The translations under genes and the position numbers were made by a program. A model generated the notes under the pieces. It was not told the DNA's origin. It made no database searches and worked only from the letters and a program-made list of their open reading frames with translations. Of a DNA stretch of 8,480 bases, positions 1,334 through 6,096 are shown one piece after another. The stretch is from Candidatus Cloacimonadota bacterium (GTDB taxonomy: Bacteria > Cloacimonadota > Cloacimonadia > JGIOTU-2 > B8-G9): the NCBI GenBank assembly GCA_003647765.1, contig QMNM01000045.1:1-8480 (forward strand), written 5' to 3'. Each line of letters begins with the position of its first letter. Position 1 is the first letter of the stretch.

Positions 1334-2929
1334 TTATAATTCATCTTTTAGTAATTCCAATGTCTTCTCAATATCAATATACGCAACTTTATCTTTGTCC
1401 CAAAACTTTACTCCAGCATTTCGTAATTTTGTATATATTTTAGCTGTTTCTTTGCCAAATACTTTTTCTGATGCCTGTCCAACAAAATCACTGTTAGCTC
1501 TTAATCTAAGATCTAATGCCTGACATGCTGATATATATTCAATAGCAATAATTTTTTTTACATTCTCCAATATTTCACGAAACTGCCTTGCCGCAATTGT
1601 TCCCATTGAAACATGATCCTCTACATCTTCGCTTGTAGGTATAGAATCTATGGATGCTGGGTGAGCTAACACCTTGTTCTCGGAAACAAGTGAAGCCGCA
1701 GTATATTGCAATATCATAATTCCGCTTTGCAAACCAGGATCAATTGAGAGCATACTTGGCAGTCCATTATTTATAAAATGTGAGCTTAGTTTGAATATGC
1801 GTCTCTCAGATATATTTCCTAACTCGGCTATTGCAATCTTCATATAATCACTTACCAATGCTATAAATTCCCCGTGAAAATTACCACCTGAAAATAACTT
1901 ATTCTCTCTTTCTGCTTCAATAATAATCAATGGATTATCAGTAATGGCATTTGCCTCATTTTCAACAATCTTACTTGCAAATTCAATAGTATCCTTTATA
2001 GGTGCTACTACCTGAGGAAAACAGCGAAGTGAATAGCTATCCTGTACTTCTCCAATGTTAGAATCTATCAAATGGCTTCCTCTAAAATATTCGCAAATTT
2101 GGTTAGCAATATCAACTTGACTTTTCTGTGCACGAAGTTCATGAATTTTGTAGTAATATGCATCAGATACACCACAAAGTGATTCAAGAGATGCGGTAAA
2201 GATTTTTGTAGCATTTTTCAATAATACTTTTGCATCATAAATAGCTAATGCTGTAATTGCAGTCATTACATTAGTTCCATTGATGAGAGCAAGCCCTTCT
2301 TTTGCATCTAAAATGACTCTTTCAATACCAGCTCTTTTCATTGCAGACAGACCGGAAATCGTCTTGATAGAATAATTATCTCTATCAAAATTTTCCTCAA
2401 CAATCACTCTGCCGCTAAATTCTTCTAAATCATTCTTTTCATCTTTTGAAAGCACTAATATAATATGTTAAATTGGAGCAAGATCACCACTTGCACCGAC
2501 TGAACCTTTTTCAGGGACAGCTGGATGTACACCTTTATTTAGCATTTCAACAAGAGTATTAACAGTGGTCAATCTTATTCCAGAATATCCATTTGCAAGA
2601 GAATTAACCCTCAACAACATTATTGCTCTAACAACTTCAATAGGCAGATAATGTCCAACACCAGCAGAATGACTGACTATTAAATTCCTTTGAAGCTGTC
2701 GTAATCTATAATACGGAATTTTCTTATTCCTTAATGCTCCAAAACCTGTGTTCACCCCATAAGCTATTGCAGCATTTTCAGAAATGTAATTATTCTCAAT
2801 ATATTTCCTGCATTTTGAGATATTTCTCTTTGCTTCTTCTGTTATCTCAACCTTTGCATAATACCTTGATACAGAAACAATCTGTTCAATTGTCAAACTA
2901 TTGCCATCTATAATTACTTTATTATACAT
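1334..2929 (-). pseudogene. hutH: Histidine ammonia-lyase, interrupted by one in-frame TAA
   Basis: Histidine ammonia-lyase converts L-histidine to trans-urocanate and ammonia in the cytoplasm, the first step of histidine breakdown. The reading frame continues from 2929 to 1334 (531 codons counting the internal stop) without a frame change, but codon 154 (2470-2468) is TAA. Nearly all family landmarks are intact on both sides: YGVNTGFG (Tyr57), SHSAGVG (His87), the MIO-forming Ala-Ser-Gly at 146-148 in GSVGASGDLAP, LALING, QDSYSLR, TDNPL, SGGNFHGE and EDHVSMG. The SH in SHSAGVG favours a histidine rather than a tyrosine or phenylalanine lyase. The stop sits at the residue after GDLAP[L/I], normally Ala or Ser; TCA to TAA would be a single change. 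The start at 2929 has GGAG at 2942-2939, 9 bases away. A GTG at 2455 could restart the C-terminal part, but has no Shine-Dalgarno. About 18 extra residues lie after the stop compared with the usual enzyme. No other hut genes are in the window. Nonsense mutation is likeliest; a sequence error is possible. Confidence 0.88.
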
Positions 2930-2938
2930 AGCATTACA

Positions 2939-2942
2939 CTCC
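2939..2942 (-). promoter_or_regulatory. Shine-Dalgarno that sets the hutH start
   Basis: GGAG on the minus strand lies 9 bases before the ATG at 2929. The upstream in-frame ATG at 2944 overlaps this site and extends the protein with residues that do not look like the family, so 2929 is preferred. Confidence 0.6.
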
Positions 2943-2948
2943 ATTCGT

Positions 2949-2987
2949 GAAACCCGACTCGAGTTCAAAGAACCCGAGTTGAGTTTC
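2949..2987. repeat. 18-base inverted repeat with a 3-base loop before hutH
   Basis: The arms 2949-2966 and 2970-2987 are reverse complements at 15 of 18 positions and are separated only by AAA (2967-2969). All three differences are transitions; in a minus-strand transcript two would be G-U wobble pairs. The hairpin ends 6 bases before the hutH Shine-Dalgarno. No T-run follows it on the minus strand, so it does not look like an ordinary intrinsic terminator. It could be a leader structure that limits or stabilises translation, a protein-binding palindrome, or a dispersed palindromic repeat. The structure is plain in the sequence; its role is inference. Confidence 0.65.
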
Positions 2988-3000
2988 TGTGTGGCTAAAA

Positions 3001-3297
3001 TTACTTTTGCCTACGAATGCAATTACAGAACCCGTGATAAATTGCACAAATGCCACCAAATAATGAAAATAGTCCTCAGAAAAGTGGACGCCCCAAAATA
3101 TGTGATAAAATTGGTTTGGAATCTGGTAAAAGATAAATTCCCCAGGTAATCATAAAACACCCAAGAACTATACATATATGACCAAATAAAATAAGTGCAT
3201 AACGGTCATTTCTCCATCCAACAAAACAGAGTCCTATACCTATAAATATCGGAATTATTCCTCCAATATTACTAAATAGTGTCTGACCGAAAACCCT
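3001..3297 (-). pseudogene. Remnant of a small three-helix membrane protein with in-frame TGA
   Basis: I do not recognise the family. On the minus strand an open frame from 3297 to a TAA at 3003-3001 is interrupted only by a TGA at 3078-3076. Three hydrophobic stretches follow each other: NIGGIIPIFIGIGLCFVGW, then (after RNDR) YALILFGHICIVLGCFMITW, then beyond the TGA the stretch GLFSLFGGICAIYHGFC, ending in a basic tail with RRQK. Reading the TGA as tryptophan (from TGG by one change) gives RPLFWGLFSLFGG, which reads naturally as membrane sequence. No proper start is visible: a TAA at 3300-3298 lies just upstream, and the only nearby ATG (3306) is two codons before it. The 5' end is therefore also damaged or missing. 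The segment lies 71 bases upstream of hutH in the same direction. The alternative is a chance hydrophobic frame in AT-rich DNA, but its length and its Gly/Trp/Pro pattern argue against that. Confidence 0.5.
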
Positions 3298-3346
3298 TTA
3301 ATCCATTTAATAAAAAGAAGTTAAGTGTCGTTTTTTGGAGCGAAGA

Positions 3347-3414
3347 TTAACCGCAAAGTCCGCAGAGAAAAATCTCTGGGAACTCTGCGAAAACTTTGCA
3401 TTCTCTGCGGTTAA
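3347..3414. repeat. Palindromic intergenic repeat with GCAGAG/GCAAAG units
   Basis: A 68-base element folds into nested stems: TTAACCGC (3347-3354) with GCGGTTAA (3407-3414), GCAAAG (3353-3358) with CTTTGC (3394-3399), and CGCAGAG (3361-3367) with CTCTGCG (3383-3389). Within the right half the motifs recur about every 10-11 bases. It is more G+C-rich than the surrounding DNA and lies in a gap without intact genes. I recall similar CGCAGAG/GCAAAG-type intergenic repeats from many environmental bacterial genomes, but cannot verify a named family here. It carries no coding potential and may be a non-autonomous dispersed element or an RNA/DNA hairpin. Confidence 0.72.
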
Positions 3415-3517
3415 ATAAAGATCATTAAAAATATAAAAAAGTAGTATGGATTAAAAATCTTCATCTCTAAAAATATGTCTCAAAGTATCTTTATTAAAAC
3501 ATTTAGAAGGTTTCTGT

Positions 3518-3634
3518 TCAATCACTAAATATTATAAATGTGAATATTCCAAGAATAAATATAAGTATTCCCGAAATTACAGTAATAAAATTATGAGATT
3601 TTATTATTTTTTCTTTTTTGATTTTTCCATTCAT
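3518..3634 (-). CDS. Possible 38-residue single-helix membrane peptide
   Basis: An ATG at 3634 opens 38 codons to a TGA at 3520-3518. The peptide has a basic, polar N-terminus (MNGKIKKEKIIKSHN) followed by an uninterrupted hydrophobic stretch of about 20 residues ending in Ser-Asp, the layout of a small type II or tail-type membrane peptide. No clear Shine-Dalgarno lies before it. It is downstream of the DUF58 gene in the same direction, but beyond the probable terminator at 3659-3677. AT-rich DNA readily gives Ile/Phe-rich short frames, so this may be chance, or a further piece of the decayed membrane gene downstream. No function can be assigned. Confidence 0.25.
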   Translation of the reverse strand: MNGKIKKEKIIKSHNFITVISGILIFILGIFTFIIFSD

Positions 3635-3658
3635 AAGAAAATATTGAAAATAAGAGGA

Positions 3659-3677
3659 CTACATTTAGAAAATGCAG
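3659..3677 (-). terminator. Possible terminator hairpin after the DUF58 gene
   Basis: On the minus strand CTGCATTT, a TCT loop and AAATGTAG form an 8-pair stem with one U-G wobble, 25 bases after the DUF58 stop codon. The following minus-strand bases (TCCTCTTATTTTC) are pyrimidine- and T-rich but not a pure T-run. The stem is short and AT-rich, so it is a moderate candidate for the end of the three-gene operon. Confidence 0.4.
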
Positions 3678-3702
3678 TAGGAATACGAAAATTTTGATGA
3701 TA

Positions 3703-4590
3703 TTACAAAAGCTTTGCTCTTTTAATTAAAAAGCGAAAAAGTGCTTTATCATAAGGAGTAGATGTATTTATTGGGACATAATCAATAAAGGCATTATGGC
3801 ATTTAGCAGAGAAGAAGCTTTTCATATTGTTAATTTGTTTTTTATATTGCTTTTTGATTTGCCAAGGCTGGGTTACTATTTCCTCGCCTGTCTCCATATC
3901 TATAAACTTTGCTTCTCTTCTAAAATCAAACTCCAATTCCTGCTCATCTAAAATGTGAAACAGAATAAGCTCATGCTTATGATGACGAAAATGCTGTAAG
4001 CCAAGCATAATTTCTTCTGGATTATCTAATAAATCAGATATAAGAATAATCAAACCCCTTTTCTTGATTCGTTCTGCTAAATTATGAAGCACACTTGCTG
4101 TATTAGTTTTTTTTTCTGGTGCAAGATTATAAAGTTTTTTGAATAGAATAGATAAATGAGATTTTGCTGAGCGCGGTGGGACATATTCATTAATTTCTTC
4201 TGAAAAGGTGAGCAATCCTACTGCATCTTGCTGACTTATCATTAAATAGGAAAGTGCTGATGCAATGGTTTTGCCGTATTCTAATTTAGAAATTTTACCA
4301 GATTTATAATTCATAGAATTACTGCAATCCAATAAGATATATGCTTTTAGATTGGTCTCCTCTTCAAATTTTTTAATGAAATACTTGTCAGTTTTAGCAT
4401 ATACTTTCCAGTCAATATATCTAAGCGCATCACCTGGTATGTATTGGCGGTGTTCAGAGAATTCAACACTAAAGCCGTGATATGGTGATTTATGTAGACC
4501 AGTAATAAAGCCCTCTACAATCAATCTGGCTCTTAAATCAAATCTGTCTAATTTGGCAATAAATTCAGGTGAAAGATTTATGTTATTCAA
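3703..4590 (-). CDS. DUF58 / von Willebrand A-like protein
   Basis: This 295-residue cytoplasmic protein belongs to the DUF58 family. The signature block is complete: SPYHGFSVEFSEHRQY (35-50), PGD and RYIDWKVYAKT (52-67), then the KKFEEETN segment (73-80). A vWA-like fold follows, with the metal-site motif DCSNS (Asp88, Ser90, Ser92), DAVGLLTF (122-129) and ISDLLD near 184-189. DUF58 proteins usually pair with a MoxR-type AAA+ ATPase and act in assembly or stress functions that are poorly defined; no MoxR gene is in this window. The start is a TTG at 4590: it overlaps the TGA of the upstream regulator (TTGA), a TAA two codons upstream forbids extension, and AAGGA at 4604-4600 lies 9 bases before it. 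Translation is therefore probably coupled to the HD-GYP regulator. Family call firm; biological role unknown. Confidence 0.9.
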   Translation of the reverse strand: MNNINLSPEFIAKLDRFDLRARLIVEGFITGLHKSPYHGFSVEFSEHRQYIPGDALRYIDWKVYAKTDKYFIKKFEEETNLKAYILLDCSNSMNYKSGKISKLEYGKTIASALSYLMISQQDAVGLLTFSEEINEYVPPRSAKSHLSILFKKLYNLAPEKKTNTASVLHNLAERIKKRGLIILISDLLDNPEEIMLGLQHFRHHKHELILFHILDEQELEFDFRREAKFIDMETGEEIVTQPWQIKKQYKKQINNMKSFFSAKCHNAFIDYVPINTSTPYDKALFRFLIKRAKLL

Positions 4591-5669
4591 AACTTACCAT
4601 CCTTATTATAATGCTTAAGAATGTCCATAGTAGAATGGTCAGTGTTAAATAGTTTTATAAAGTTTTTCCCAATCTCAGGGTCAAATTGTGTCCCTAAATT
4701 TTTATCAATTTCAATAATAGCCTTTTCTGCTAGTAATTGATTCCTGTACGGACGAGTGCTCATCATAGCATCAAAAGCATCAACTACTGTTACAAGGCGA
4801 GCCAGAAAGAATATATCATCTCTTTTTAGTCCTGATGGATAGCCCTGTCCATCATATCTCTCGTGATGTTGATAAATAATATTAATAATTTTCTCATCAA
4901 ATTCTATTGGTTCCAATATATGTTTTCCAACTGATGGATGGGTTTTTATAATTGCATATTCATCATTATTAAGAGGTCCATTTTTATGTAAAATAGTTTT
5001 ATCAATGCCTATTTTTCCTATATCGTGCAATATAGATCCAATTTCAAGATTTCTTATCTCTTGTGAGGTTAATCCCAACTTTTTGGCTAATTTTATACTG
5101 TATTGTCGCACTCTTTCTGAATGTCCTTTTGTGTATCTATCACTAGCTTCTAATGTATTGATTACAATACGGACAGTTCCTAGAAACATATCTTCTAAAT
5201 TTTTATAAGCTATTTTCAACTGTGTTGTTCTTTTTTTTACCATTTCCTCTAAATGAAGCCGATATTGAATATTTTCCCATTTCAATCTCTGTTTGTCTAC
5301 TGCATTTTTAACTGATATAAACATCTCGTTCATATCAAATGGCTTAGTTATAAAATCATAAGCCCCATTCTTAAATGCATCCATTACTTTTTCCATATCT
5401 CCATAGCCAGTCATTAGAATTAAAGGGATGTCTATTTCTTTTTCCTTAATAAGATGTAATAGATCCAAGCCAGACATTCCTTGCAAACAAATATCACTAA
5501 TAATAAGTGAGAAAACCTCTCTATCAAGCAACTTTGTAGCTTCAATAGCATCCTTAGCAGTAATAACTCTATATCCTCGTAATTCTAAATAATCTTTAAT
5601 CGCTGTTCGTATATCTTTCTCATCATCAATTACTAATATTGTATCAATTTTATTATCTATTATGTTCAT
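4587..5669 (-). CDS. Response regulator with receiver and HD-GYP domains (RpfG-like)
   Basis: This 360-residue protein is probably a phosphorylation-controlled cyclic-di-GMP phosphodiesterase in the cytoplasm. The N-terminal receiver domain (about 8-125) has the acidic pair Asp15-Asp16, the phosphoacceptor Asp59, Thr87 in LMTGYG and Lys109 in ITKPFD. A charged helical linker (about 127-160) joins it to an HD-GYP domain with GHSERV (His183), HDIGKIGI (His215-Asp216), THPSVGK (His244), HHERYDGQGYP (His268-His269, GYP 276-278) and VDAFDAM. All expected metal and substrate landmarks are present, so it should be active. I chose the ATG at 5669 because GGAG at 5679-5676 lies 6 bases before it; the ATG at 5681 has no site. 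The gene overlaps the PPC gene by 17 bases and the DUF58 start by 4, which implies tight co-translation. The cognate kinase is not in the window. Confidence 0.93.
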   Translation of the reverse strand: MNIIDNKIDTILVIDDEKDIRTAIKDYLELRGYRVITAKDAIEATKLLDREVFSLIISDICLQGMSGLDLLHLIKEKEIDIPLILMTGYGDMEKVMDAFKNGAYDFITKPFDMNEMFISVKNAVDKQRLKWENIQYRLHLEEMVKKRTTQLKIAYKNLEDMFLGTVRIVINTLEASDRYTKGHSERVRQYSIKLAKKLGLTSQEIRNLEIGSILHDIGKIGIDKTILHKNGPLNNDEYAIIKTHPSVGKHILEPIEFDEKIINIIYQHHERYDGQGYPSGLKRDDIFFLARLVTVVDAFDAMMSTRPYRNQLLAEKAIIEIDKNLGTQFDPEIGKNFIKLFNTDHSTMDILKHYNKDGKF

Positions 5670-6096
5670 TGCTATCTCCATAAAAATTTAATCGTAATTT
5701 TTTATCTTCTGGTTCCTTGCGAAATATTGCATTAGGAATGGTCTCTAAAAAAAGTTCCAGTGTATTCCATACCTTAGCATTTATTAAATGGCCACCAAAT
5801 ACACGGTGTCCTTTATCACCTAAACTTATATGAACATGCCAATCCTTTTGATTATCAACTGTCGTGAACATATTACCACTAATAGAAATCAACTCTAATG
5901 GCTGTTCAAATTTATCTATTTTATATCCTTTACCAGTAAAATAGCCAATTTCAGTATCTTTAAGCATACCTACGCCATTTAATACAATAATATTTTTTAT
6001 ATCTTCTTTATTTGCAAATTCTTTTAATTTTTGAACTAAGTCCTCTTGATGAATAAGACGCAAACAATACTTATTGCTAAATCGTTTTATAATCAT
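5653..6096 (-). CDS. PPC/DUF296 domain protein
   Basis: This 147-residue protein is a single PPC (plant and prokaryote conserved, DUF296) domain. Evidence is the YCLRLIHQEDL opening, the FAN...IVLNGVGML strand-turn segment (27-45), YFTGKGY, LELISISGN (67-75), and the histidine cluster HVHISLGD (His87, His89) and GHRVFGGHL (His97, His103), which in this family lies in a conserved, possibly metal-binding pocket. PPC proteins form trimers; in plants the domain is part of AT-hook proteins, while bacterial single-domain members have no settled function. The start at 6096 has GAGG at 6105-6102, 5 bases away. It is the first gene of an operon with an HD-GYP regulator and a DUF58 gene, so a sensory or ligand-binding role in that pathway is a reasonable guess, not shown. 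Confidence 0.85.
   Translation of the reverse strand: MIIKRFSNKYCLRLIHQEDLVQKLKEFANKEDIKNIIVLNGVGMLKDTEIGYFTGKGYKIDKFEQPLELISISGNMFTTVDNQKDWHVHISLGDKGHRVFGGHLINAKVWNTLELFLETIPNAIFRKEPEDKKLRLNFYGDSNEHNR

Follow-up and report, generated by a model that had tools for sequence, protein, structure and literature searches.

A histidine ammonia-lyase-type gene interrupted by one in-frame TAA in a Cloacimonadota genome assembly: recent loss or consensus error?

The DNA analysed here, a stretch of 8,480 nucleotides that we refer to as the window, carries on its minus strand a gene of the histidine ammonia-lyase (HAL) type that is cut by one in-frame TAA (Table 1). The question that it raises is whether the enzyme has been lost, whether it is made in two parts or through the stop, or whether the assembled sequence simply contains a wrong base. 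The stop is an ordinary nonsense state in an otherwise intact gene and not a new two-part enzyme; as to its origin, we regard a real loss and an error in the consensus as about equal.

Table 1. Coordinates of the interrupted gene, its neighbours in the window and the other interrupted genes found in the assembly
Feature	Position	Strand	Remarks
HAL-type (histidine ammonia-lyase) gene	2929-1334	minus	ATG 2929 to normal stop; one internal TAA
N-terminal piece of HAL-type gene, 153 codons	2471-2929	minus	Translation; PF00221 E = 1.7e-54; alignment with relatives
In-frame TAA in HAL-type gene	2468-2470	minus	Ser/Ala codon in all relatives
C-terminal piece of HAL-type gene, 377 codons plus normal stop, same frame	1334-2467	minus	PF00221 E = 5e-109
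38-nt palindrome copy	2950-2987		Directly upstream of HAL gene; dispersed in genome
Small membrane-protein gene remnant	3025-3285	minus	N-terminus missing; in-frame TGA at 3078-3076, a TGG (Trp) codon in relatives
pyrG (CTP synthase) with lone in-frame TAA	L234 (G000 contig C113) 1990-3690; stop 3205-3207		Glutaminase domain
DUF3782-like ORF	L033 11231-11695	minus	One in-frame TAA after 22 codons

A reading made earlier from the sequence only had placed a single in-frame TAA eight codons after the start of the MIO triad, with the frame unchanged on its two sides, and translation agrees on both counts. The stop takes the place of residue 154 counted from the ATG at 2929 (a second in-frame ATG lies at 2944), eight codons past Ala146, and the triad Ala-Ser-Gly (residues 146-148) falls in the N-terminal piece. 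The minus-strand translation runs ...GSVGASGDLAPI, is broken by the stop, and resumes as HIILVLSKDEK..., and the Pfam family Lyase_aromatic (PF00221) matches each piece. Homology this strong on either side of one stop is not due to chance. Read as one frame with X at the stop, the gene scores 547.5 bits against the hutH model TIGR01225, above the curated cut-off of 539.15, while the pieces scored apart reach 186.6 and 359 bits, both below it, so that the cut-off is passed only when the frame is read through the stop. HIILVL does resume where the family motif had been expected, but close relatives have [S/A]H[I/L][I/M]LV at this place and not the SHMALV that had been cited.

The residues required for catalysis are in place. 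We take the HAL active site to comprise, in Pseudomonas numbering, Y53, H83, N195, Q277, Y280, R283, F329 and E414, and all eight were found at the aligned positions, so that with the MIO residues 11 of the 11 checked are intact. The earlier claim that every catalytic landmark survives holds to this extent, but a proline typical of the family, found in 49 of 55 HALs, is replaced by Phe355 in GNFHGE[P].

Orthologues were sought in relatives that included 17 genomes of the same order, some of them incomplete, none belonging to the family of the window genome. In the ten closest relatives with a HAL orthologue, at 60-73% identity, the gene is uncut without exception, and the codon at the position of the stop is TCN or GCN in all ten, being TCA in one of them (L009). 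Across 55 aligned HALs the corresponding position is Ser in 37 and Ala in 17, and only the window has a stop there. Examination of the locus and the codon in relatives, which had been proposed as a check, thus finds the stop in the window only. Matches of at least 60% identity to the HAL-type gene are absent from 8 of the 17 same-order genomes, again with some of these incomplete, and the gene therefore seems to be dispensable. A contig scan with a single HAL protein as query returned no match, and one with the HAL alignment as query returned distant HALs only. Two further observations were made among the relatives. One same-class genome encodes a HAL with 100% identity to the HAL of Candidatus Syntrophosphaera thermopropionivorans, by which the window is assigned to the class of Syntrophosphaera within the Cloacimonadota; and relative G008 has, downstream of a HAL, several short fragments resembling HAL C-termini (contig C23, about 2301-5895). 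A literature search found no paper that combines Cloacimonadota and histidine ammonia-lyase.

In order to judge how long the gene might have been broken we consider the constraint on its two halves, which match the relatives equally well. Where the other ten proteins all agree, the window HAL differs at 10 of 241 sites, compared with 11 of 242 for L008, which lies at the same distance, and at the 94 columns of the 55-HAL alignment that are at least 95% conserved it deviates at 2, other members deviating at 0 to 6. Differences are distributed over codon positions 1, 2 and 3 alike in both halves and much as in intact pairs. Old decay is rejected on these grounds, both halves being under normal constraint. 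Selection on the gene was normal up to a very recent time, or remains so, and the combination of a single stop, normal constraint elsewhere and intact relatives is that of a recent nonsense pseudogene. The alignments thus point to a private, recent one-base nonsense state and not to a conserved split enzyme.

In same-order relatives the HAL-type gene usually belongs to a conserved block, where it precedes a second HAL and further genes, TruA-, TsaB-, Rho- and MutS-like (names that we assigned by inspection). In the window it stands alone, flanked by a Wzz-type gene and by what is left of a small membrane-protein gene. This decayed remnant adjoins the HAL gene upstream and goes beyond what had been claimed for the locus; it shows that real decay occurs here too. 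Part of the ancestral HAL block sits on another contig of the assembly, without a HAL. Neither the second HAL nor urocanase was found in the window's assembly, which is 88.8% complete; urocanase was found in 15 of the 16 near-complete genomes of the urocanase search. The hutI and ftcD genes are present and uncut. The palindrome between the HAL gene and the remnant, GAAACCCGACTCGAGTTC-AAA-GAACCCGAGTCGAGTTTC, has 41 matches genome-wide, mostly intergenic and often close to contig ends. No Rfam families or tRNAs were found in the window, and a promoter and terminator scan gave matches at chance level. Contamination during binning is unlikely, the GC content of about 30% being like that of the rest and the dispersed palindrome being common to many other contigs.

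We put at even chances a real and recent loss of a dispensable HAL gene, either fixed or segregating in the population. A single nonsense change, TCA to TAA in one step, would have been acquired very recently and in the window genome only. The product would then be a truncated fragment of 153 residues, with the MIO residues but without the remainder of the active site, and the gene as written would give no working enzyme; the stop base would be real and neither fragment would function. In favour of such a loss we count that the stop is private and that constraint is unrelaxed, as well as the dispensability of the gene in relatives, the failure to find the second HAL and urocanase, and the decayed remnant next door. 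Against it count the uncut hutI and ftcD, the near absence of decay in the HAL gene beyond the stop, and the fact that the genes not found may sit in the 11% of the genome that is unassembled. Also to be counted against it is a second gene, pyrG, which is cut by a lone TAA of its own.

It is pyrG that gives weight to the other leading explanation, namely that a single base is wrong in a fragmented metagenome assembly and that the HAL-type gene of the organism is intact, for which we would set the chances somewhat short of even. Our survey of 0.98 Mb, roughly half the genome, looked for stop codons that interrupt coding frames (in-frame stops only, frameshifts lying outside the survey). Apart from the HAL gene and the remnant beside it, it turned up two cases, pyrG and a DUF3782-like ORF whose TAA probably replaces a Lys codon. 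CTP synthase, the product of pyrG, is normally essential, and the interrupted copy is the only one found in the assembly. The sequence around its stop is GTA TAA CAT, against GTT TTA CAT in relatives, and the stop is most easily taken as a consensus error. Because a true break of an essential gene is unlikely, the assembly probably holds errors of this kind, and an equivalent lone TAA in pyrG raises the chance that the HAL stop is one of them. The 360 contigs (1.97 Mb) over which the assembly is spread and the otherwise intact state of the HAL gene are consistent with this. However, the half of the genome that was surveyed gave no more than about three clear cases if the remnant is set aside, and these might equally be real pseudogenes; a true remnant does adjoin the HAL gene. 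The sequence-only reading had favoured a recent nonsense event over old decay, and that much stands: the change is a single base, most simply TCA to TAA, relatives are uncut and constraint is normal. Given the TAA in pyrG, a real mutation is not established.

A much less probable explanation is that the TAA is translated, by readthrough or suppression, and full-length enzyme made. What speaks for it is that both the HAL gene and pyrG have TAA followed by CAT and are conserved past the stop. The CAT, however, is ancestral in both cases, as intact relatives have it too, so that the shared context is weak evidence for readthrough. Moreover, TAA is in regular use as a stop, ending 279 long ORFs compared with 128 for TAG and 88 for TGA, and no tRNA with a TTA anticodon, as expected of an ochre suppressor, was present among the 34 of 35 tRNA matches that were read. 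RF2 is present and is the sole release-factor gene of the RF1/RF2 family found in the assembly; the other probably lies in the missing part of the genome. With all three stops in use at the ends of long genes and no ochre-suppressor tRNA found, an alternative genetic code is rejected and recoding is unlikely, and it would be very surprising if the lineage translated TAA at selected sites so as to produce HAL and CTP synthase at full length through TAA-CAT.

Least credible of all is a split lyase in which each piece is translated on its own, the second starting at the GTG at 2455, and the two combine to form an active enzyme, since, for all that both pieces are conserved and that this GTG, the first possible start of the C-terminal piece, follows the stop by 12 bases, the break lies directly behind the MIO loop, is known from one sequence only and occurs in no relative examined (10 of 10 orthologues are uncut), and the bases before the GTG (CCAATTTAACATATTATATTA) contain no Shine-Dalgarno-like stretch. 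The earlier reading had noted the GTG and the missing Shine-Dalgarno and had judged a split enzyme less likely on that account, rightly as it turns out, and a conserved split HAL is rejected.

By itself the HAL case matters little, adding one more nonsense-interrupted gene or one-base error to those of metagenome-assembled genomes. The broken pyrG is more of a warning, in that the reads should be consulted before any biological meaning is given to interrupted genes in this assembly.

Compared with known systems, the gene shares with HutH (TIGR01225, PF00221; the MIO family) a full frame that passes the cut-off, the MIO triad and the HAL active-site residues, and differs in being cut by one TAA, in belonging to a subgroup whose MIO loop is followed by an insertion of about 18 residues, and in that this subgroup is not part of a hut operon in the relatives inspected. 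The extra stretch (SGRVI..RDN..KTISG), present in the window at 2351-2449 and in loci L002-L011, does not occur in the remaining HALs of the class. In several relatives the subgroup gene stands in tandem with the second HAL, which has Gln for His after GDLAPMS; hutU was found beside it in none of the relatives read, and histidine is a putative substrate. With recent bacterial nonsense pseudogenes, and with the spurious pseudogenes of draft assemblies (PMC11017572), the window HAL shares a lone internal stop that only one assembly shows, the gene being conserved in all other respects, and from these it has no distinctive difference.
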